A DNA stretch of 64,000 nt. Origin: Ilumatobacteraceae bacterium. Its GTDB lineage: Bacteria; Actinomycetota; Acidimicrobiia; Acidimicrobiales; Ilumatobacteraceae. Numbering within the stretch: position 1 is the stretch's first letter; every line of letters begins with the position of its first letter. The notes beneath the pieces are model-generated. The model did no database searches, was not told the DNA's origin, and was given only the letters and a program-made list of their open reading frames with translations. The position numbers and the translations under genes are program-made. The stretch covers positions 3,559,595 to 3,623,594 of the forward strand of contig JAWPMO010000001.1 of assembly GCA_033344875.1 (NCBI GenBank), written 5' to 3'. Of the stretch, positions 5,492 through 60,807 are shown one piece after another.

Positions 5492-6220
5492 ATGGAGGTG
5501 TTGCTGCTACCGATCGCCGCCGTCGTGGCCGGCTTCATCTCGTTCAGTTCGCCGTGCTGCCTGCCTTTGATCCCCGGCTACTTGTCGTACATGTCGTCGC
5601 TGCCGGTTTCGGAGTTGGGTCGGCGTGAGGCGCGAGGCGTGGCGTTGCGCGCATCAGTGTTGTTCGTGGCGGGCTTCACGACGGTCTTCACTGCATTGGG
5701 GGTGTCGGCGGCGCTGGTCGGGTCGGTGCTGCTGCGTAACCTGCCGGTGATCGTGCGGGTGTCCGGCGTGATCATCATCGTGATGGGGTTGTCGATGCTC
5801 GGGATCTTCCGGATCCCGTTGTTGTATCGAGAGCGGCGACTCGATCTCGCCCGGATCCCGGCCGGCCCGAGATCTGCGTTCCCTTTGGGGATGGCGTTCG
5901 CGTTCGGATGGGCGCCGTGCATCGGGCCGGTGCTGGCGACGATCCTGGCGACCGCGGCGGCCAGCCAAACCGTGGCCTGGGGCGGGGCGCTGCTGATGCT
6001 CTATTCGCTGGGGCTCGGTCTCCCGTTCATCGCCCTCGCACTCGGCTTTCACCGGGCCCGAGGTTCGCTGAGCTGGTTGCGCCATTACGGGCGCACGATC
6101 GAGGCAATCGGAGGCGTGATGCTCGTCGTCGTCGGCATCATGTTCGTGACGGGTGTCTGGCGGGCCATCTTCATCCCGCTGCAACGCATGTTCGCCGAGT
6201 TCGGGTGGCCGCCCATCTGA
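5492..6220 (+). CDS. ccdA: CcdA cytochrome c biogenesis/thiol-disulfide membrane protein
   Basis: The 242-residue protein has six predicted membrane helices and both CcdA cysteine motifs: SFSSPCCLPLIPGYLSY near residue 18 and FGWAPCIGPVL near residue 145. It moves electrons from cytoplasmic thioredoxin to periplasmic-side thiols needed for heme attachment. Start is ATG 5492 or, from promoter geometry, GTG 5498; no ribosome binding site precedes either. Further upstream in-frame codons lie across the operator. It complements the CcmF/H/I/G proteins encoded later in the same regulon. Confidence 0.9.
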   Translation: MEVLLLPIAAVVAGFISFSSPCCLPLIPGYLSYMSSLPVSELGRREARGVALRASVLFVAGFTTVFTALGVSAALVGSVLLRNLPVIVRVSGVIIIVMGLSMLGIFRIPLLYRERRLDLARIPAGPRSAFPLGMAFAFGWAPCIGPVLATILATAAASQTVAWGGALLMLYSLGLGLPFIALALGFHRARGSLSWLRHYGRTIEAIGGVMLVVVGIMFVTGVWRAIFIPLQRMFAEFGWPPI

Positions 6221-6229
6221 AAAGGCGAC

Positions 6230-6247
6230 ATGACACCGTGGTGTCAT
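6230..6247. repeat. Perfect 8-bp-arm palindrome after ccdA
   Basis: ATGACACCGTGGTGTCAT has two perfect 8-nt arms around GT, 9 nt after the ccdA stop and 116 nt before the ArsR-type gene. The 2-nt centre is too short for an RNA hairpin loop unless inner pairs open, so it is better read as a protein-binding site. It does not resemble the CCTACA palindrome. It could be the operator of the downstream CmtR-like repressor. Confidence 0.4.
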
Positions 6248-49586: not shown

Positions 49587-49988
49587 ATGACAGTCTCTGG
49601 CTGGGTCGGCCCCACGCTGGTCGTGTTGTGGGCGCTGGGCGCAACTGTGGTCCTGGCCGGCTGTGGCGGGTCTGCAGCGTCCGACCTGCAGGGTGATGCC
49701 GCACGGGGAGCGACGCTGGCACGCGTTTTGGGCTGCGCCGCGTGTCATGGCGACGCCAACCACGACGCAGCGATCGGACCGTCGTGGGTCGGGTCGTGGG
49801 CCGACGATGTCGAACTGTCCGACGGCGACACGGTGAGGTTCGACGCCGAATATGTCGTGACGTCGGTGCGCGAGCCGGATCTGCAACGCCGAATCGGTGA
49901 CTGGCGTCGTATGCCGGCATTTGGCGCCGATCAACTGACCGACGACGAGTTGAACGACATCGTCGCCTATTTGGAGACTCTCGGATGA
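49587..49988 (+). CDS. Class I c-type cytochrome, probable lipoprotein
   Basis: The 133-residue protein has an N-terminal signal with lipobox (VVLAGCGG, about Cys26) and a mono-heme domain: GCAACHGD (CxxCH, about 48-52). Axial Met is probably in RRMPAFGADQLTDDELNDIV split near residue 112. It resembles the cytochrome domain fused to caa3 oxidase subunit II and could deliver electrons to the oxidase. Its stop overlaps the SCO gene (ATGA, 49985-49988). The Ccm proteins of the left part would mature it. Confidence 0.87.
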   Translation: MTVSGWVGPTLVVLWALGATVVLAGCGGSAASDLQGDAARGATLARVLGCAACHGDANHDAAIGPSWVGSWADDVELSDGDTVRFDAEYVVTSVREPDLQRRIGDWRRMPAFGADQLTDDELNDIVAYLETLG

Positions 49989-50680
49989 CCGAATCCGAGA
50001 CGCACACAGATGTTGTTTCGCAGACGCCCGTCGTGGAAACGGTGGGTCCTGCCGACGTGAGGTCGCCTCGGCGGCAGGTGATCGCGATTGCGGTCGTTGC
50101 ATTCCTCGTGCTCGGCGTCGGGCTGCTCGTCGGTTTCACCCGCGCGTCGTCGCAATCATCATCGGCATGGGTAAAACTCGCGACGCCGATCGAGATGCCG
50201 GAGGTCGTGCTGACCGACACCGACGGTCGGCCATATGACCTGCGCGATCAGACTGCGGGCCAGGTGACACTGCTGTACTTCGGGTATCTCAACTGTCCGG
50301 ATGCGTGCCCGATCCACATGGCAGTGCTCGGTGCGACGTTCGACCAGCTCGAGCCCGACGTGCGCGCACAACTCAACGTCGTGTTCGTCACCACCGACCC
50401 CGAGCGCGACGGACCCGACGACCTCCGCGAGTTCCTCGACCGGTTCGACCCTGACTTCGTCGGACTCACCGGCTCGCAGGCCGAGCTACGCGAAGCACAG
50501 GTCGCGGCCGGAGTGCCCGTCGCCGTGGCCGAGCCCGCCGATCCGGACGGTGACTACCTCGTCGGCCACGCCACACAGGTGCTCGTGTTCGACACCGACG
50601 GCATCGCTCGCAGCGTGTACCCGTTCGGCGTCCGCCAGTCGGACTGGGTTGCGGATCTTTCGAAACTGGTCGACACATGA
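49985..50680 (+). CDS. SCO1/SenC-family copper chaperone
   Basis: The 231-residue protein has a membrane anchor (about residues 31-52) and a SCO fold: YLNCPDACPIHM (CxxxC) and LVGHATQVLVFD (distal His). It probably inserts copper into the CuA site or keeps it reduced. It is coupled by ATGA to the cytochrome c gene before it and the PCuAC gene after it. This order, SCO-PCuAC-CtaG, is a standard oxidase copper-delivery set. Confidence 0.93.
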   Translation: MTESETHTDVVSQTPVVETVGPADVRSPRRQVIAIAVVAFLVLGVGLLVGFTRASSQSSSAWVKLATPIEMPEVVLTDTDGRPYDLRDQTAGQVTLLYFGYLNCPDACPIHMAVLGATFDQLEPDVRAQLNVVFVTTDPERDGPDDLREFLDRFDPDFVGLTGSQAELREAQVAAGVPVAVAEPADPDGDYLVGHATQVLVFDTDGIARSVYPFGVRQSDWVADLSKLVDT

Positions 50681-51132
50681 AGCCGGCTCGCACGTTCGCG
50701 TTCGTCGCTGCCAGCATGGTGTTGGCAGGCTGCGCGCAGACCGCCAACGCTCCCAGTGCTTTGACGGTCGAACGTGCCCGCATTGGCGCAACCCCGGCCG
50801 GTGCCGACGCGGCAGCGTATTTCGACATCCGGGCGGGTGGCGACGAGCGGCTGACCGGCGCCGCCACCGTCCTTTCGGCGCGCACCTCACTCCACGAGAT
50901 GCGTGAGGTCGACGGCGGCGGCATCATGACCCCGGTCGAGGCGGTGGACCTGCCCGCCGGTGTCGTCGTGCGATTCGAGCCCTTCGGTGATCATGTGATG
51001 CTCGAGGACCTCGAACGTGATCTGCTGTCCGGCGACAAGGTGACGATCACCTTGTCATTCGCCGACCATGAGTCCGTCGAGGTCGAGGCCACGGTCGTCG
51101 ACCTCATCGATCTTGCCGAGGAGAACCGTTGA
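50677..51132 (+). CDS. PCuAC-family periplasmic copper chaperone lipoprotein
   Basis: The 151-residue protein has a lipobox signal (MVLAGCAQ, Cys19). The copper motif H-x-M...M...H-x-M is visible as SLHEMREV, GIMTPV and DHVML. PCuAC takes Cu(I) and passes it to SCO or directly to CuA of oxidase subunit II. ATGA overlap with the SCO gene. It sits in the cytochrome c-SCO-PCuAC-CtaG unit. Confidence 0.92.
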   Translation: MKPARTFAFVAASMVLAGCAQTANAPSALTVERARIGATPAGADAAAYFDIRAGGDERLTGAATVLSARTSLHEMREVDGGGIMTPVEAVDLPAGVVVRFEPFGDHVMLEDLERDLLSGDKVTITLSFADHESVEVEATVVDLIDLAEENR

Positions 51133-51187
51133 TCGACACCCACGAAGGACCCAGCAGCACCGTGCGACGACTCGGAGGTCGGTGCCC

Positions 51188-52045
51188 ATGAGGTGGTGGT
51201 GTTCCCAGCTCTACGAGCCCTGGTCATGGAGCCCGCGGCCGTACCTCGGTGTGTGGATAATTCTCGCAATACTCGTCGTTGTTCGCGCCCGCACGCTGCG
51301 GCGTCGCCGGCGCCATACCGATTCGGTTGGGGTGACCTCGCGTCAACGGGTCGCGTTCTGGTTCGGACTCTTCGGGTTCTGGCTCGCCTCGGATTGGCCG
51401 GTCGGCACACTTGGTGCTGGCTACCTCGCGTCACTCCACATGACCCAGTACATGCTGTATACGTTCATGGCCGCACCCCTGCTGCTGCTAGCCGCGCCAG
51501 AATGGTGGGTTCGGCGACTCCTCGCCCGTACCAAGACTTACCAACTCGTCGCGTGGGCCTCGAAGCCGCTCCGCGCCGCGGTCATCGCCAATGCGATCCT
51601 GATTGCTACTCATGCGCCGTGGACGGTCGACAATCTTCGAGTCAGCCAAATTGGATCGTTCGTCCTCGACGTCATCTGGATTCTCGGCGGTCTTATCGTC
51701 TGGTACCCCGTCGTCGGTCCGCTCCCCGAACATCGAGTCGCGTCCCCGCCACTCCGTTGCGCCTTCCTGTTCGCCGCCGCCGGCGTCTCGTCGCTGATCC
51801 CAGCCGGCTTCCTGACGTTTGCCAACAATCCGCTCTACCGAAGCTATGAGATCGCCCCACGCGTCGGCCTCGACCCTCTCGACGACCAGCAACTCGCCGG
51901 CGCGATCATGAAGGTCGGCGCCCTTCCCGTCATCTGGGTCACGATGGCGGTCATCTGGGTCCGTTGGGCGACCGCCGAACGCACCGCCGACCAAGACGTC
52001 GCCCGCGCCGACCAGCAACCCACCAAGCCAGAGCGGAAACCTTGA
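51188..52045 (+). CDS. CtaG-type cytochrome c oxidase assembly protein
   Basis: A 285-residue membrane protein with about seven helices of the caa3_CtaG family (LASLHMTQYMLYTFMAAPLL, ATHAPWTVDNLRVSQIG and MKVGALPVIWVT). The conserved His of HMTQY and THAPW are the likely copper contacts. ATG 51188 has GGAGG upstream at about 9 nt. It is 55 nt after the PCuAC gene and completes that unit. Paralogue at 40311. Confidence 0.88.
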   Translation: MRWWCSQLYEPWSWSPRPYLGVWIILAILVVVRARTLRRRRRHTDSVGVTSRQRVAFWFGLFGFWLASDWPVGTLGAGYLASLHMTQYMLYTFMAAPLLLLAAPEWWVRRLLARTKTYQLVAWASKPLRAAVIANAILIATHAPWTVDNLRVSQIGSFVLDVIWILGGLIVWYPVVGPLPEHRVASPPLRCAFLFAAAGVSSLIPAGFLTFANNPLYRSYEIAPRVGLDPLDDQQLAGAIMKVGALPVIWVTMAVIWVRWATAERTADQDVARADQQPTKPERKP

Positions 52046-53593: not shown

Positions 53594-56152
53594 TCAGGCG
53601 TGGTCGTCGACCCGGACTGCGGGTCGACTCGTGTCGCCGTTCTGGTCGGCACCGTCGAAGCGATAGGCGAGCAGTCGCAGGGCGTTTCCGACGACGAGGA
53701 GGGTCGACCCTTCGTGGAACACCACAGCAGGTCCGATTCCCACGAACCCGGCGAGTGTGGCTGGAATCAAGAATGCGACCATTCCGAGGCTCGCATAGAG
53801 GTTCTGTTTGATGATGCGACTTGCTGCGCGGCTCAATCCGATCACGACGGGGAGCTTGGCCAGGTCGTCACCCATCAGCGCAACATCCGCTGTTTCGAGT
53901 GCAACATCGGATCCTGCAGCACCCATTGCGATTCCGACGGTCGCGTTGGCCATGGCCGGGGCATCGTTGACGCCGTCGCCGACCATGGCGACCTTGCCCT
54001 CTTCGGATCGCAGGCGCACGATCGCGTCGACCTTGTCGTCCGGCATCAGGTCACCCCATGCGTCGGTGAGGCCGACCTGCTTTGCGATCGAGTCGGCAAC
54101 GAGCTGGTTGTCGCCCGAGATCATGATCGCACGCTCGATCCCGAGCTCGCGAAGGTCGCTGATCATTGCTTGAGCCGAGGCGCGTGGTGTGTCCATCAAC
54201 CCGAGAGTTCCGAGGAAGCGGTCGGAACGCTTCACGATCATGATCGTGCGCCCATTCTCGAGCAACTGTTCGGCGTCGGCGCGCACCGAGTCGTCGAGCC
54301 CGCCGTTCTCGTCGAACAGGGCGATATTGCCGATCAACACGTGGTCGCCGTCAACGGTCGCCTTGACCCCACGACCCGTGATCGATTCAACCCCACTCAC
54401 CGACGTTGTCCTCCTCCGTTCGTATCGAGCGGTGCCGTCACGCACGACTGCGGCGGCGAGGGGGTGGTCGCTTCGATCTTCGACGCCGACGGCAACGTCG
54501 AGGAGTTCACTCTCGTCGACGGCTGTTGCCGCGATGACGTCGGTCAACCGCGGTTTGCCCTCGGTCAGAGTGCCCGTCTTGTCGAACGCAACGGCCCGTA
54601 GCGTCCCGAGGTTCTCCAACGGGCCACCACCTTTCACGAGAACTCCGACTTGTCCGGCCCGCGCGACCGCGGCGAGCACAGCGCTGGGCGTCGCGATCGC
54701 CAACGCACACGGACTGGCGGCCACCAGTACCGCCATGGCGCGATAGAACGAGCTCGCCCACGAGGAACCGAACGCCGGACCGATGACCATCACGACGATG
54801 ACAAGAATCAACACGGTTGGAACGAAGAGGCGTTCGAACCGGTTCGTGAACTGCTGTGTCGGCGATGCCTGCGTCTCGGCTTCGCGGACCATCGTCGCCA
54901 ACTTCGACAATGTCGTGTCCTTGGCGAGGCGGGTCACGTATATATCGATCTGTCCGCTGCCGTTGAGCGTCCCTGCGAACACCCTCGATTCCTCGGACAC
55001 GCCCGCAGCATCTTGCGCCGCGGCCTCGGGATCGTCTACCGCAGACTTGTCGACCGGGATGCTCTCGCCCGTCAGCGGAGCCTGATCGACGCTGCTCGTT
55101 CCGGCGACCACGAAGCCATCTGCGGCGATCCGTTCGTTCGGTTTCACCAGGACAAGATCGCCCACCTCGAGTTGCTCAACCGGGACTTCCGAGTCGGAAC
55201 CGTCCCGTCGGACGATGGCGGTCGCAGGTGCGAGTTCACCGAGCGCTTCGATGGCGCGTCTGGCACGACCCATTGCGTACCCTTCGAGAGCGTGACCGAG
55301 GCTGAATAATGCCAGGAGAAGCGCACCCTCCTCCCACTTGCCGAGAATGAACGCGCCTGCTGCGGCGACCAGCATCAGGAAGTCGATCTCGAACCGCTTG
55401 TTGCGAATCCCGTCGATGGCCTCACGCAACGTGAAGTACCCGCCGAACAAGCCCGACGCGATGAACGTGCCGGTCAGGGCCTGTTCACCCAACGCACCGG
55501 TGACCTCGGTGAGGAAACCAACCGTCCACAAGACCGCCGACGCAATCGCGAAGTACAACTCGCTCCGTTCGCCGAATGGTCCGCCGTGGTGATGAGCCTC
55601 GTGATCGCGATCTTGGTCACGACCGTCGTCGGCGGTTTCGGCGGCCGCATCGGCGCTGTCCACGAGCGGTGCGTCACCCGCGCCACCGCCCGACGAAGGG
55701 GATGTCATTGGCGTGGCACTCACGCCGTGGCGCAACAACGTGTCGCGCACGTCGGCTTCGGTGACCACTCGTCGGTCAAATTCGACGCGGACGATACCCG
55801 GCGTCACCTCTGCCTCGGCGATGCCGTCAACACGTCTCAGGGACTCTGCGACCGATCGAGCCTTGCGAATATGGGTCACGCCTGAGACAGACCAGAGCAC
55901 GTGCCCAAACTGATCGGTGATCTCTGCCCCAGACGCCCGTGCGAGGCTGCGGATTCTGGCCACGCTCGTCGTGTCGGGATCGAAGTGCAAACAGACGCGA
56001 CTCGGATCGTCTGTGCCCGCTGCGATGACATGAACGTCGTCGACCCCGGCGCTGTTCGACAGCGTCGAGATCAGCCGATCGACACACGGATCGTGCTCGC
56101 TTGGGGCATGTGGCAGCAGGACTGGCAGATCGAGTTGAACAGTGCGGGTCAT
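53594..56152 (-). CDS. P1B-4-type metal ATPase with degenerate N-terminal metal domains
   Basis: An 852-residue pump. Two N-terminal ferredoxin-like domains (about 1-75 and 80-148) lack CxxC. A His-rich linker (DHEAHHHGG, about 183-191) follows. The core has TGES (about 361), SPC (about 480-482), DKTGTLT (524-530), GDGVNDAP and FHEGSTLLVVGN in helix 8. SPC plus HEGST defines P1B-4 pumps (CoaT, CtpD, CzcP), which export Co, Fe(II), Ni or related ions. No ArsR-type repressor is adjacent, unlike the other two ATPases. Possibly serves metallation of exported redox proteins. Confidence 0.93.
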   Translation of the reverse strand: MTRTVQLDLPVLLPHAPSEHDPCVDRLISTLSNSAGVDDVHVIAAGTDDPSRVCLHFDPDTTSVARIRSLARASGAEITDQFGHVLWSVSGVTHIRKARSVAESLRRVDGIAEAEVTPGIVRVEFDRRVVTEADVRDTLLRHGVSATPMTSPSSGGGAGDAPLVDSADAAAETADDGRDQDRDHEAHHHGGPFGERSELYFAIASAVLWTVGFLTEVTGALGEQALTGTFIASGLFGGYFTLREAIDGIRNKRFEIDFLMLVAAAGAFILGKWEEGALLLALFSLGHALEGYAMGRARRAIEALGELAPATAIVRRDGSDSEVPVEQLEVGDLVLVKPNERIAADGFVVAGTSSVDQAPLTGESIPVDKSAVDDPEAAAQDAAGVSEESRVFAGTLNGSGQIDIYVTRLAKDTTLSKLATMVREAETQASPTQQFTNRFERLFVPTVLILVIVVMVIGPAFGSSWASSFYRAMAVLVAASPCALAIATPSAVLAAVARAGQVGVLVKGGGPLENLGTLRAVAFDKTGTLTEGKPRLTDVIAATAVDESELLDVAVGVEDRSDHPLAAAVVRDGTARYERRRTTSVSGVESITGRGVKATVDGDHVLIGNIALFDENGGLDDSVRADAEQLLENGRTIMIVKRSDRFLGTLGLMDTPRASAQAMISDLRELGIERAIMISGDNQLVADSIAKQVGLTDAWGDLMPDDKVDAIVRLRSEEGKVAMVGDGVNDAPAMANATVGIAMGAAGSDVALETADVALMGDDLAKLPVVIGLSRAASRIIKQNLYASLGMVAFLIPATLAGFVGIGPAVVFHEGSTLLVVGNALRLLAYRFDGADQNGDTSRPAVRVDDHA

Positions 56153-56257: not shown

Positions 56258-56497
56258 TCACTGCTTTCTGGCTCGTCGAGATGTCCACACGACGATTCCA
56301 CCGATCACCATGACCGCCGCCATGCTGACGAAGAACGCCACCGATCCCGAGCCCGAACTGACGCCATTGTTGTCAGCGGATCGGTAGGCGGTCTGTCGGG
56401 GTCCAGCCGCTGCAAGCGGCGCGTCGATCGTGAGAGCCACCACGACAACGAGCACCACGATGAGGCGAGCGGCGAGGTCGTCAATCCGGTATTTCAT
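56258..56497 (-). CDS. Small exported or membrane protein coupled to the anti-sigma gene
   Basis: The 79-residue protein has a signal or first helix (about residues 12-31, ending AAAG), a short Ser/Asn-rich outer stretch, and a C-terminal membrane helix with an Arg/Lys tail (VWTSRRARKQ). Its ATG overlaps the TGA of the anti-sigma gene (ATGA, 56497-56494), which is the main support. No family recognised. Confidence 0.65.
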   Translation of the reverse strand: MKYRIDDLAARLIVVLVVVVALTIDAPLAAAGPRQTAYRSADNNGVSSGSGSVAFFVSMAAVMVIGGIVVWTSRRARKQ

Positions 56498-57147
56498 CGA
56501 TGCGTCCGCAGGCGAGCGATGCCGACGCCCGCGGAGAAGTGGATCGTAGGTCGACGCGTTCTCTTGCCAGGTCCAGCCAGTCGGCGACCGGAGAGAAACC
56601 AGACCATTGAGAGCCCGCACATCTGTACGAGATGATGAACTCCGCCTCCAATGGTCAAGTTCGAATTGATCACGTCGACGGTTGCGAACGTCGGGATCGC
56701 GAACCCGAGCGCGAACACGAGCGGCATCAAACCGCCAGCGCGACCCGGCCTCCATGCCACGAAGAGCAATGCGCCCGCAACGGCAGCCCCGAACGCGCCA
56801 ATGTGCTGTGTGTCATGAATCGGCGACGCTGAACGACCCGCAACGACTCCAGAGATCGCAAAGACCAACTCGACTGACGCGAGCAGCGCCAGACCAAGCC
56901 GGATCAATCGGAACGAGGTCCGAGGGCGATGCCTGCTTCGGGCGAGGGCCTGTGTCGCGATGTCGGGAATCTGTTCCGCCGGTCGAACCCGGAGCGCGCG
57001 TGTCACAGATCCGATCGACGTCCACCATCTGGAGCAGTCAGCGCATCGCCCGAGGTGAGCGTTTGCCACGCGTGCCTCGTCGGGCTCGGCCTCCTGATCG
57101 AGCTGAGCCGACAGAATCGTTCGCGCGGCGATGCACTCCACGAACAC
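56494..57147 (-). CDS. Zinc-finger anti-sigma-like membrane protein
   Basis: A 217-residue protein. The zf-HC2 site (VECIAARTILSAQ then HLGRCADCSRWW) lies in the first 50 residues. Five hydrophobic segments follow (about 85-105, 118-140, 145-165, 170-190), ending in an Arg-rich tail. Zinc-finger anti-sigma factors hold ECF sigma factors until a redox or envelope signal frees them. The ECF gene at 60274 is the nearest candidate partner. The start is uncertain: GTG 57147 or 57141. A truncated paralogue is at 42985. Confidence 0.75.
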   Translation of the reverse strand: MFVECIAARTILSAQLDQEAEPDEARVANAHLGRCADCSRWWTSIGSVTRALRVRPAEQIPDIATQALARSRHRPRTSFRLIRLGLALLASVELVFAISGVVAGRSASPIHDTQHIGAFGAAVAGALLFVAWRPGRAGGLMPLVFALGFAIPTFATVDVINSNLTIGGGVHHLVQMCGLSMVWFLSGRRLAGPGKRTRRPTIHFSAGVGIARLRTHR

Positions 57148-57414
57148 CAATGACCTGACCGTCCCGGTCGGTTCCCGCAGTCGTCGAGAAAGGATGAACT
57201 GATTGAGCTCGCTACGGACCTGTTGATCGACACCAGACTTGCAGGGTTCGAGCGGCCTGCCACGGCGATGTCGTTCGGGGATCCCACGAAGGGTACGTCG
57301 CACCGTCCGTCCTCGTTCATGTCCGAACATCATGCCTTCGACCTAGCGGGGCGCGTTGTGCTCGGAGCCGACCTGAGACAAGCTGTTGTCAAGATTCGTT
57401 GGAAGAGAGCATGA

Positions 57415-57963
57415 ATGCCGGTCGATGAGATGAGCCCCGACGCCAGATTGAGCCGTCGCGCGATCCTGCGAGCGCTGGTCGCGGCGCCGATCGCCGCTGC
57501 ACTCACTGCGTGCGGCACCGAGGGATTGGGAGGCGAATCGACCAGGAAGAACAACGGCACTGAGGAGAATGCGGGCCAGTCAGCGTCAGCCGGCGTGCGC
57601 GTCGAAGTGTGGCGAGATCCCGGTTGAGGATGTTGCGCCAGCTGGGTCGGGTACCTGGCAGACCATGGATTCGATGCTGACATGAGGGACGATCCTGACC
57701 GTGCGACACGTCGCGCAACGCTCGGCATCCCGAACGAAGCGGCCGGGTGCCACACCGCACTCATCGAGGGCTATGCGCTCGAGGGTCACGTTCCAGTCGG
57801 CGCGATCGATCGGCTCCTGACCGACCGGCCAGACCTGATCGGACTCGCTGTCACGGGTATGCCCAGTGACTCGCCCGGCATGGGTGGGAACGAAGCGACC
57901 TGGGAATCCCAAGCGGTTCAATCGATCGCGACGAACGGGACACTCGCACTCTACGAATACTGA
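57415..57963 (+). CDS. DUF411 metal-binding lipoprotein with in-frame UGA at a conserved cysteine (possible selenocysteine)
   Basis: The frame is open from ATG 57415 (RBS GGAAGAGAG) to the TGA at 57961-57963 except for TGA at 57625-57627, codon 71. Before it: a Tat-like lipoprotein signal (SRRAILRALVAAPIAAALTACG) and RVEVWRDPG. After it: GCCASWVGYLADHGF, CHTALIEGYALEGHVPVGAI and GLAVTGMPSDSPGM, all typical DUF411. The family motif is DPGCGCC; here the first Cys codon is UGA (DPG-UGA-GCC). A hairpin follows 9 nt later. Either selenocysteine is inserted there or the gene has a nonsense mutation at exactly that codon. DUF411 proteins are thought to bind copper or mercury outside the membrane. 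Confidence 0.75.
57637..57659 (+). promoter_or_regulatory. Candidate bacterial SECIS-like hairpin downstream of UGA
   Basis: GCCAG (57637-57641) pairs with CTGGC (57655-57659). After a C-C mismatch, U-A and G-U pairs can extend the stem to a 7-nt apical loop GGUCGGG that begins with G. The loop starts 18 nt after the UGA. Bacterial SECIS elements are stem-loops just 3' of the UGA with a short loop having a G in its first positions. The fit is fair, and hairpins of this size are common in GC-rich genes. Confidence 0.35.
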
Positions 57964-58101: not shown

Positions 58102-60093
58102 TCACACAGTGACGTCGAGTCCAACTCCGTCGGTGTCGAACCCGGAGTCGGAGTCGTCGTCGGGTTCGGTGTGTGGTTCGAGACTCCAACCGAAAACGGC
58201 GATCAGCAGGATCAGGGCACCGGCTGCGGCGAGGATCAGGTTGAAGATCACCCCGTAGGCGATGATTGGCAGCGCGAACGCCGTCACGATTGGCCAATAC
58301 GACGGCGACGGAAGATGGATGTGCGCGTCGGCATCGGCTTCCTGCTGGGCGATGATCTCCTCCGCCGTGGCGATCTGTTGGAAGTCGTGGTGCCCGTCCA
58401 CGCCGCGATCTTCGTACTTGCGGTGGAAGAACTCGTCGAGATTGCTCACGGTCGGGATCACGTCGAAGTTGTGTTCCTTCGGAGGGTTGGTCGTGAGCCA
58501 CTCCAGCGAGCGCGCATCCCACGGATCCAGCGGAGCAGGCCCGTGTTTGCGATGCGACACGACGATGTTCACAACGAAGAGGAACACACCGATGGCCAGC
58601 ACCAGCGAACCCAATGACGCAACAAGATTCCAGAAGCCGAGATTGAAGATTCCCTCGCCGGCACGCGCTTCGGTCCACACGTACATTCGACGTGGCTGAC
58701 CTTGGAGTCCGATCACGTGCATGGGTCCGAACGTGAGGTTGAGCCCGATCACCATCACACCGAAGTTCCAACGACCGATCCGTTCCGACAGCATCTTGCC
58801 GAAGACTTTTGGCCACCAGTAGTAGAACCCGGCGAAGAGCCCCAACACAGCACCACCGAAGAGCACGTAGTGGAAGTGTGCGACGACGTAGTAGGTGTCG
58901 GTCTGCTGAGAATCAGACGGCGCAACGGCGTGTGTGACGCCTGAGAGCCCGCCAATCGTGAACTGCACGATCAGCCCGATCGCGAACAACATTGCTGTCG
59001 TGAATCGAAGTTTGCCGCCCCAGAGGGTCATCGTCCAGTTGACAATCTTGACACCGGTGGGGATCGCGATGGCCATGGTCGAGACGGAGAAGACGGCAAC
59101 CGAGATCGGCCCGAGGCCGGAGGCGAACATGTGGTGAGCCCACACGCCCCATCCCATGAACCCGATTGCAGCGCCGGAGAAGACGACGAGCGGGTAGCCA
59201 AACAGCGGCTTCTTCGAGAACACCGGAAGCACCTCGGAGACGATGCCGAACGACGGCAGGATCAAGATGTACACCTCTGGGTGGCCAAAGATCCAGAACA
59301 GGTGCTGCCACAGCAGCGGGTCGGCACCAGCCTCGACAGAAAAGAATGTTGCGTCGAACTGGCGTTGAAACATCAACAGAAACAGCGCCACGGTGATCAC
59401 CGGGATGGCGAACAACAGTAGAAACTGGGTGACGAGCACCATCCATGTGAAGATCGGCATCTTCATCAAGGTCATGCCCGGGGCCCGCATGTTGATGACG
59501 GTGACGATCAGGTTGATGGCGCTGGTGAGCGACGCAATGCCAGTGATCTGCAATCCGAGCGTCCAGAAATCGATGCCATTCGTTGGCGAGAACGGCACCG
59601 ACGAGTTGGGCGCATACATGAACCAACCGCCGTCCGCCGCACCGCCGAGGAACCAGGACGTGTTGATGAAGATCGCGCCGGCGAGGAAGCACCAGAACCC
59701 GAACGCGTTGATTCGGGGGAAGGCCACATCGCGTGCGCCGATCTGAAGCGGCACGAGGACGTTCGCGAACGCCGCCGCCATCGGCATCACGAACAGAAAC
59801 ACCATCGTTGTCGCGTGCATCGTGAACATCTGGTTGTACATGTCAGCCGAGAGCACCGTGCCATCTGGCCCTGCGAGTTGTGCGCGAATCAGCAGCGCCT
59901 CGAGTCCGCCAATCAGAAAGAATGCGAAGGCTGCGACCCCGTACATGATGCCGAGCTTCTTGTGATCGACCGTGAACAGCCAGGACTTCCAGCCGGTCGT
60001 GTGCACGGGTCGACGGAAAACGCCGTACGTCGTGGCGGGTGTCGCGACCGTTGGAGGACGAGACGTCGGTACCGGGCGTTCGATGACCGCCAC
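58102..60093 (-). CDS. ctaD: Cytochrome c oxidase subunit I with C-terminal subunit-IV-like extension
   Basis: A 663-residue heme-copper oxidase core. FTMHATTMVFLF (low-spin heme His), WIFGHPEVYILILPSFG (CuB His and cross-linked Tyr), VWAHHMFASG (two CuB His) and VAHFHYVLFGG (heme His pair) are present. About residues 560-663 add a linker and two more helices (PSYWPIVTAFALPIIAYGV) like the small subunit fused in many actinobacteria. It is a terminal oxidase reducing oxygen. GTG 60093 is chosen from the usual VAVIERP-type N-terminus; longer starts would overlap the divergent sigma gene. Subunits II and III are not in the window. Confidence 0.93.
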   Translation of the reverse strand: MAVIERPVPTSRPPTVATPATTYGVFRRPVHTTGWKSWLFTVDHKKLGIMYGVAAFAFFLIGGLEALLIRAQLAGPDGTVLSADMYNQMFTMHATTMVFLFVMPMAAAFANVLVPLQIGARDVAFPRINAFGFWCFLAGAIFINTSWFLGGAADGGWFMYAPNSSVPFSPTNGIDFWTLGLQITGIASLTSAINLIVTVINMRAPGMTLMKMPIFTWMVLVTQFLLLFAIPVITVALFLLMFQRQFDATFFSVEAGADPLLWQHLFWIFGHPEVYILILPSFGIVSEVLPVFSKKPLFGYPLVVFSGAAIGFMGWGVWAHHMFASGLGPISVAVFSVSTMAIAIPTGVKIVNWTMTLWGGKLRFTTAMLFAIGLIVQFTIGGLSGVTHAVAPSDSQQTDTYYVVAHFHYVLFGGAVLGLFAGFYYWWPKVFGKMLSERIGRWNFGVMVIGLNLTFGPMHVIGLQGQPRRMYVWTEARAGEGIFNLGFWNLVASLGSLVLAIGVFLFVVNIVVSHRKHGPAPLDPWDARSLEWLTTNPPKEHNFDVIPTVSNLDEFFHRKYEDRGVDGHHDFQQIATAEEIIAQQEADADAHIHLPSPSYWPIVTAFALPIIAYGVIFNLILAAAGALILLIAVFGWSLEPHTEPDDDSDSGFDTDGVGLDVTV

Positions 60094-60273
60094 GGTCAGG
60101 CCGCGACCGCGTAGATGTCGGCAACCAGACGGAGCGTCGGCCGGCCGCCAGTGACACTCCTCACGCAGCGTCGTTGGTCGTTGACCAGTCTCATCTCGTA
60201 CGAGCATCTTGCATCGTGTTGTGTCACACCTCACTGATGACCGCACGCTGGGAGCGAGTTCCATCGGTATGGC

Positions 60274-60807
60274 ATGATCGTGCTTGTGCTCGACCTCGAC
60301 GCTCTCGCTCGCGACGCACAAGACGGTGATGCGGACGCCCTCGAGCGGTTCGTCCGAGCCATCCAGCCAGACGTGTGGCGATTCTGCGTGCATCTCACCC
60401 GGTTCGACGTCGCTGACGACCTCGCCCAAGAATCATTGGTCCGCGTCATCGAGTTCCTGCCACGCTGGAATCGTGGCCCGGCGCTCACGTGGGCGCTCGG
60501 AGTCGCCCGAAATGTATGCCGCGAACACATTCGCCGGGTCACCCGTAGGCGCACCGATCCGGTAGCGGAACCAACGACCGCAGCCACCGCCGATCACGGC
60601 GATGTCGTGCCCGTCATGCTCGTTCTGGCATCGCTCCCGATCGACCAACGCGAGGCGATCGTGTTGACACAACTCATCGGACTGCCGTACGCGTCGGCAG
60701 CCACCGTCATCGGCTGTCCGATCGGCACCGTCAGATCGCGCGTCGCGCGGGGTCGCGAAACACTTGCCATAGCGCTCAATCGTCGATCCGACTCCCAGTC
60801 CGGATAG
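60274..60807 (+). CDS. ECF-type RNA polymerase sigma factor
   Basis: A 177-residue sigma-70-family protein. Region 2 (about residues 25-85: FVRAIQPDVWRFCVHLTRFD, DDLAQESLVRV and PALTWALGVARNVCREHIRR) and region 4 (about 115-165: LPIDQREAIVLTQLIGLPYA and GTVRSRVARGRE) are clear. ECF sigmas redirect RNA polymerase to stress genes. It is divergent from ctaD with overlapping upstream space, so it may control ctaD. The zinc-finger anti-sigma at 56494 is the likely antagonist, separated by ctaD and DUF411. Confidence 0.9.
   Translation: MIVLVLDLDALARDAQDGDADALERFVRAIQPDVWRFCVHLTRFDVADDLAQESLVRVIEFLPRWNRGPALTWALGVARNVCREHIRRVTRRRTDPVAEPTTAATADHGDVVPVMLVLASLPIDQREAIVLTQLIGLPYASAATVIGCPIGTVRSRVARGRETLAIALNRRSDSQSG

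Follow-up and report, generated by a model that had tools for sequence, protein, structure and literature searches.

Introduction

The closest described protein to the gene analysed here is the copper resistance protein CopG (PDB 6wis, 6wje). In the available part of PMC7558416, CopG is described as binding a tetranuclear copper cluster through a CxCC motif and a pair of methionines; its proposed function is oxidation of Cu(I) and onward transfer of copper. Several metal-related selenoproteins are also known from bacteria; Table 1 of PMC13188914 contains the SO_0444 Cu/Zn efflux transporter (UxC motif), an E1-E2 cation ATPase (UxxC), CopZ-family 2Fe-2S proteins and a putative MerT. The published model of the bacterial SECIS element, in the part of PMC13188914 available, has a loop of 3-9 nt, a stem of 4-16 bp, a distance of 16-37 nt from the UGA, a G in the first two loop positions and a folding energy of -7.5 kcal/mol or lower.

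Neither DUF411 nor CopG appears in the selenoprotein Table 1 of PMC9312934 or among the 119 families in Table 1 of PMC13188914 (2026), and neither was found in the portion available of the deep-Sep paper (PMC12013277). Among open-licence papers none joined DUF411 to selenoprotein or selenocysteine (Sec), so that a report elsewhere remains possible. An earlier note on the DNA studied here knew of no selenocysteine DUF411 protein, and the two published tables list none.

We analysed a stretch of 64,000 nucleotides from an Ilumatobacteraceae bacterium (the window), in which a DUF411 gene carries an in-frame UGA at a motif cysteine. Our best reading is that this gene belongs to a new selenoprotein family, a UxCC-type CopG that is the Sec variant of CopG; selenium incorporation has not been shown.

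Results

A CopG-like reading frame with one in-frame UGA

The gene occupies 57415..57963 on the + strand and comprises 182 codons and a stop, an assignment that draws on translation, Pfam, profile and fold comparisons. Translated from the ATG at 57415, it has a single in-frame TGA at codon 71 (57625..57627, + strand), after which 111 sense codons run to a TGA stop at 57961-57963. The context of codon 71 is DPG[TGA]GCC, so the TGA takes the place of the first Cys in the CxCC motif of DUF411, and comparison of the Cys/Sec column marks it as the proposed selenocysteine codon, the first position of a UxCC motif. Translation thus confirmed the earlier description of a 182-codon DUF411 frame intact except for this codon. 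The read-through product matched Pfam DUF411 with E 4.9e-22, and an NCBIfam scan of five proteins returned no model above its own cut-off. Under the standard code the longest frame at the locus has 93 amino acids, starts at 57682 and lacks the motif; annotation by that code would split such genes in two.

The family profile matched CopG (6wis/6wje) with E 7.7e-30. An AlphaFold2 model (mean pLDDT 82.7, with the first 60 residues poor) matched the same structures with a Foldseek E of 1e-11, and its alignment to CopG reached Z 18.8 over 121 residues at 35% identity. Across 70 aligned rows, residues 71, 73, 74, 112, 113 and 156 were invariant, position 71 being always Cys or Sec, and residue 149 was nearly so. 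The ligand set of CopG is therefore present as C73, C74, M156, the nearly invariant M149 and Sec/Cys at 71, with the reservation that the copper-binding Met of CopG was not assigned from the structure. Judged by eye, the N-terminus of the product resembles a lipoprotein signal, its first residues being twin-arginine-like.

A thioredoxin-like fold with a CxCC motif would also suit a selenoprotein that acts mainly as a thiol/selenol oxidoreductase of the thioredoxin type, for example by keeping the copper-site Cys of SCO1 or of the oxidase CuA site reduced, instead of holding a copper cluster, and the available part of PMC13188914 describes most characterised selenoproteins as having a thioredoxin-like fold and a redox motif. 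However, no other fold comes near CopG as a match, the next reaching only Z 6.4, and the invariant and near-invariant residues exceed what a redoxin needs. We consider a predominantly oxidoreductase role unlikely and retain the CopG-like copper protein as the preferred reading.

Recurrence of UGA at codon 71

Within the family, a search of 221 genomes gave 15 matches in 13 genomes. Each had exactly one internal stop, a TGA at the same codon followed by 111 sense codons, and none of the 15 had TGC or TGT there. Two of them lie in the source genome, namely the window gene and a paralogue (L032; G000:C1:3903700-3904203), and a genome placed in the same genus (G107) has a DUF411 gene identical to the window gene. 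The TGA-containing paralogue adjoins a P-type ATPase match. Sampling 397 genomes at the order level yielded one more TGA form, from another family (G393), as well as two Cys forms. In a phylum sample of 396 genomes, seven besides the source had a match and none of these contained TGA; six carried a Cys codon (TGC or TGT) at this position, and the seventh match (L130) stops short of it. A GTDB scan, from which the best 80 of 426 confirmed relatives were kept (79 loci), returned Acidimicrobiia and other Actinomycetota drafts first and then mostly Alphaproteobacteria. No relative was found in the viral contigs searched, and 3423 plasmid records matched, all below 60% identity (matches only, with the codon state not read).

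Removal of exact duplicates downstream of the codon reduced 97 loci to 76 distinct genes. Dropped before this count were the weak order-level matches L037-L043 (E 1.3e-5 to 8.4e-4), whose aligned stretch we judged not to be DUF411, and L064, whose contig starts after the codon. Codon 71 was TGA in 35 of the 76 genes, TGC in 35 and TGT in 6; because the GTDB part holds only the best 80 of 426 relatives, the 35:41 ratio of TGA to Cys does not give the share among all DUF411 genes. None of the 35 TGA genes had a stop between the UGA and the final stop, which was itself TGA in 31. After the UGA, third-position differences outnumbered those at the other two positions together in all nine gene pairs compared, an excess that was clear in eight (for example, 47 v 15) and marginal for the window gene against L020 (55 v 54). 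These sequence comparisons indicate purifying selection after the UGA in TGA genes.

The earlier note had left room for a one-base nonsense mutation, and TGA is indeed one base from TGC or TGT. A decaying DUF411 gene with a nonsense mutation or a sequencing error would not, however, be expected to show the same codon in 35 distinct genes without another stop before the final one, purifying selection after it, a conserved hairpin and Sec machinery in the genome (both described below). Neither a sequencing error nor an isolated nonsense mutation accounts for a TGA that recurs in many separate genomes and in two copies in the source genome; recurrence at 15 of 15 family matches and 35 of 76 distinct genes in effect refutes this rival, and we give it almost no weight. 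Barely more credible is the reading of UGA as some other amino acid, through read-through or a changed genetic code. Conservation of the frame on both sides of the UGA would allow it, but UGA still functions as a stop, since it terminates 31 of the 35 genes; moreover, a tRNA-Sec with anticodon tca is present and the codon aligns with Cys. Nonsense mutation, sequencing error and a changed code were thus rejected on recurrence, the absence of further stops and the TGA final stops, leaving Sec as the preferred reading of codon 71.

Sec machinery in the source genome

The source genome is a single contig of 4,968,626 bases and 99.65% complete. The earlier note had proposed looking for selA, selB, selC and selD, and all four are there: selB (275.9 bits, cut-off 242.25), the adjoining selA (396.6 bits, cut-off 267.9), tRNA-Sec, the selC product, with the tca anticodon (66.6 bits, gathering score 47) and selD (367.2 bits, cut-off 125). 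The SelD gene has one in-frame TGA of its own. A formate dehydrogenase alpha (FdhA-like) match (648.4 bits, under its cut-off of 666.25) also has one in-frame TGA, which by eye falls where the active-site residue is expected and has a stem-loop after it. Near this longer FdhA match (L143) there is a short match to the FdhA N-terminus with a TGA inside (L148; G000:C1:4444603-4444851, - strand).

A conserved hairpin downstream of the UGA

The proposed SECIS hairpin lies at 57641..57659 (+ strand), with a stem of 57641-57647 paired with 57653-57659 and a loop at 57648-57652 (CGGGU), 20 nt from the UGA to the loop. The earlier note had described a stem-loop with a G-starting 7-nt loop at a SECIS-compatible distance; the stem-loop is present and the 20-nt spacing of its loop fits, but in the register supported by comparison the loop has 5 nt. 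With 6-7 bp, a 5-nt CG[G/U]GU loop and this spacing, the geometry agrees with the published model.

The core 6-bp stem (57642-57647 paired with 57653-57658, + strand, or +15..+20 with +26..+31 around CG[G/U]GU) forms in 33 of the 35 TGA genes and in 0 of the 41 Cys genes. The latter are a poor hairpin control, being mostly distant; in the one close Cys control (L061) the loop sequence is retained and pair +15/+31 is broken. Most Sec genes read UGGGUCG[G/U]GUACCU after the UGA, and synonymous choice in this stretch is almost invariant. At codon +7, GTC was used for 32 of 33 Val. The Gly at codon +8 was GGG in 17 of 17 cases, v 21% elsewhere in the same genes, and the Val there GTG in 16 of 17, v 34% elsewhere in the same genes; the Leu at codon +10 was CTA in 8 of 33, v 1.9% of Leu codons elsewhere. 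Pair +15/+31, which connects two variable amino-acid positions, was GC in 28 of the 35 TGA genes, CG in 4 and UG in 2, with one exception; by itself it is also possible in 27 of the 41 Cys genes.

Covariation was assessed in an alignment of 33 rows (32 distinct) with a 7-pair structure derived from these same sequences. Two TGA genes, L066 and L075, were omitted since their downstream sequence differs; both are counted in the 35 elsewhere. There were 9 two-sided changes v 2.5 +/- 1.2 in shuffled alignments and the covariation score was 0.155 v 0.070, and none of 500 shuffles reached either value. Only 2 pairs show a two-sided change, which is unexceptional (264 of 500 shuffles), and in 19 of 32 rows the outermost pair does not form. 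Kinship among the sequences can beat shuffles without any structure. A longer lower stem was considered and rejected, pair +14/+32 being kept in 14 of 35 genes. The recurrence of UGA at this codon together with a conserved hairpin, for which the earlier note had suggested searching DUF411 relatives, is nevertheless borne out.

Folding energy did not discriminate. The window hairpin reached -8.8 kcal/mol as an isolated 20-mer (fold tool) but -7.1 as a bare stem-loop (our own script), on either side of the -7.5 limit, and the 48 nt starting at the UGA were no more stable than shuffled sequences (z +1.54), so that energy is not evidence by itself. By our script, 7 of the 35 TGA genes reached -7.5 kcal/mol or lower, as did 1 of the 41 Cys genes; at other codons of the TGA genes the mean fraction was 0.17, up to 0.60. 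With no discrimination in any of these comparisons, energy was discarded as SECIS proof.

The two genes left out of the alignment both lack the hairpin of the other TGA genes, and they differ from one another. L066, a divergent TGA form, has a perfect 10-bp hairpin after the UGA (6187-6234; -23.1 kcal/mol, z -3.76) with a UAUAU loop lacking G, possibly a different SECIS class. L075 has no notable hairpin of its own (z 0.10).

Phylogeny and machinery in relatives

In a quick tree of 76 proteins, with the residue of the trait masked and many forks unresolved, all 35 Sec genes fell into a single group with support 97, which also holds L061, a Cys gene. Two Sec/Cys state changes suffice on this tree, v about 25 for shuffled labels. 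As far as these sequences can tell, the simplest account would be a single gain of Sec and a single return to Cys. Close relatives with TGC or TGT were to have refuted the selenoprotein reading; there is none among the 15 family matches, and the wider set has one nearby, L061 (TGT), which lies inside the Sec clade. After the codon, L061 and the Sec form closest to it share 79% identity; the L061 genome still has tRNA-Sec and SelB, and the gene may be a recent Sec-to-Cys change. Its SECIS region (around 6034) keeps the loop sequence and has lost one stem pair. Another gene (L070, TGA), from a draft titled Gemmatimonadetes, shares 94% identity with an Acidimicrobiaceae gene over 112 residues; mis-binning and transfer are not distinguishable here.

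tRNA-Sec is present in every one of the 13 family genomes that carry the gene, but it also occurs in 147 of the 221 family genomes overall, so its presence in gene carriers is weak evidence alone. Among 12 further Sec-form genomes, tRNA-Sec was found in 7 and not in 5, three of which had SelB above cut-off. In G393, where tRNA-Sec was not found, SelB is partial at a contig end (220.6 bits), and in G971, also a Sec form, neither was found. Three of five Cys-form genomes had tRNA-Sec. Of the 35 Sec genes, 8 come from genomes outside this survey.

Genomic context

The gene is surrounded by genes for copper handling and cytochrome oxidase. On one side are a SCO1/SenC copper chaperone (49985..50680, + strand; Pfam E 5.3e-31), a PCu(A)C copper chaperone (50677..51132, + strand; E 9e-24), the cytochrome oxidase assembly protein CtaG (51068..52045, + strand; E 4.8e-35) and a P-type ATPase, probably of the heavy-metal type (53594..56152, - strand; Pfam E1-E2_ATPase E 1.1e-53). 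On the other side is a cytochrome oxidase subunit I frame (58102..60429, - strand; Pfam COX1 E 1.6e-152), the true start of which is probably further in. Immediately upstream of the DUF411 gene a zf-HC2 (anti-sigma-like) protein is encoded (56497-57333, - strand), with a factor of the sigma-70 family nearby (60274-60804, + strand); both are possible regulators of the copper/oxidase cluster.

Among 32 relatives' loci searched, many of them short, 11 had a match to the window ATPase and one (L048) to SCO1, PCuAC and CtaG. The 108 neighbour frames of 35 loci (34 TGA, 1 TGT) included Pfam E1-E2 ATPase (8), Cu-oxidase_2 (multicopper oxidase; 4), HMA (4), CopC (3), CopD (3) and MerR (3), counted without random control loci.

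Discussion

The earlier note regarded UGA at a metal- or redox-active Cys as the mark of a selenoprotein candidate. UGA recurrence, the Sec machinery and a conserved hairpin with a covarying pair, all read from sequence, support that candidacy. Our main reading is an exported CopG-like lipoprotein in which UGA 71 is translated as Sec by SelA, SelB, SelC and SelD with a downstream SECIS, turning CxCC into UxCC, and which has a copper role by CopG homology; we put its probability at roughly 0.75. Most likely, SelB and Sec-tRNA would bind the hairpin and Sec would be inserted at the UGA. Such insertion at codon 71 is inferred, without protein evidence, and we hold it with high confidence. The lipoprotein would then be exported, an inference too, and, by homology to CopG, the selenolate of Sec, the thiolates of two Cys and two Met may hold a copper cluster on the thioredoxin-like fold.

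How far this copper chemistry applies is less certain. A copper role is likely on our analysis, given CopG homology and the copper-gene context, with copper binding, including that of a tetranuclear cluster, inferred by homology only. Selenium itself as a copper ligand is an inference that we rate as close to an even bet. The physiological role, equally inferred, could be to detoxify copper or to provide it to cuproenzymes, for instance the cytochrome oxidase encoded next to it. We also entertain, tentatively and with slightly more doubt than belief, the broader idea that Acidimicrobiia evolved a CopG in which an encoded selenolate replaces one bridging Cys of a multi-copper cluster. The result would be a naturally occurring copper-selenolate cluster outside the cytoplasm, tuning affinity for copper or Cu(I)/Cu(II) redox chemistry to serve detoxification or the assembly of cytochrome oxidase.

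If correct, these results add a selenoprotein family missing from two published tables and place selenium where a copper ligand is proposed, in a protein whose structure has been solved for the Cys form. The Sec forms and close Cys forms (L061; many in Alphaproteobacteria) make selenium's gain at a copper site testable.

The SO_0444, E1-E2 ATPase, CopZ-family and MerT selenoproteins resemble the window protein in having Sec at a metal-site Cys, but they consist of other domains, none of them DUF411. The DUF1573 and UGC-containing TlpA-like selenoproteins share a Sec motif given as UGC (PMC9312934, PMC13188914), and again have other domains, a comparison made without sequences. FdhA and SelD of the same genome likewise have an in-frame TGA, presumably decoded by the same machinery, whereas they belong to known selenoprotein families unrelated to CopG. 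CopG itself is alike in sequence and fold, with the CGCC motif and the SCHT and GMPxxSPGM segments aligned. Unlike CopG, the window protein has an N-terminus that by eye resembles a lipoprotein signal, and CopG has Cys where the window family has the in-frame UGA.
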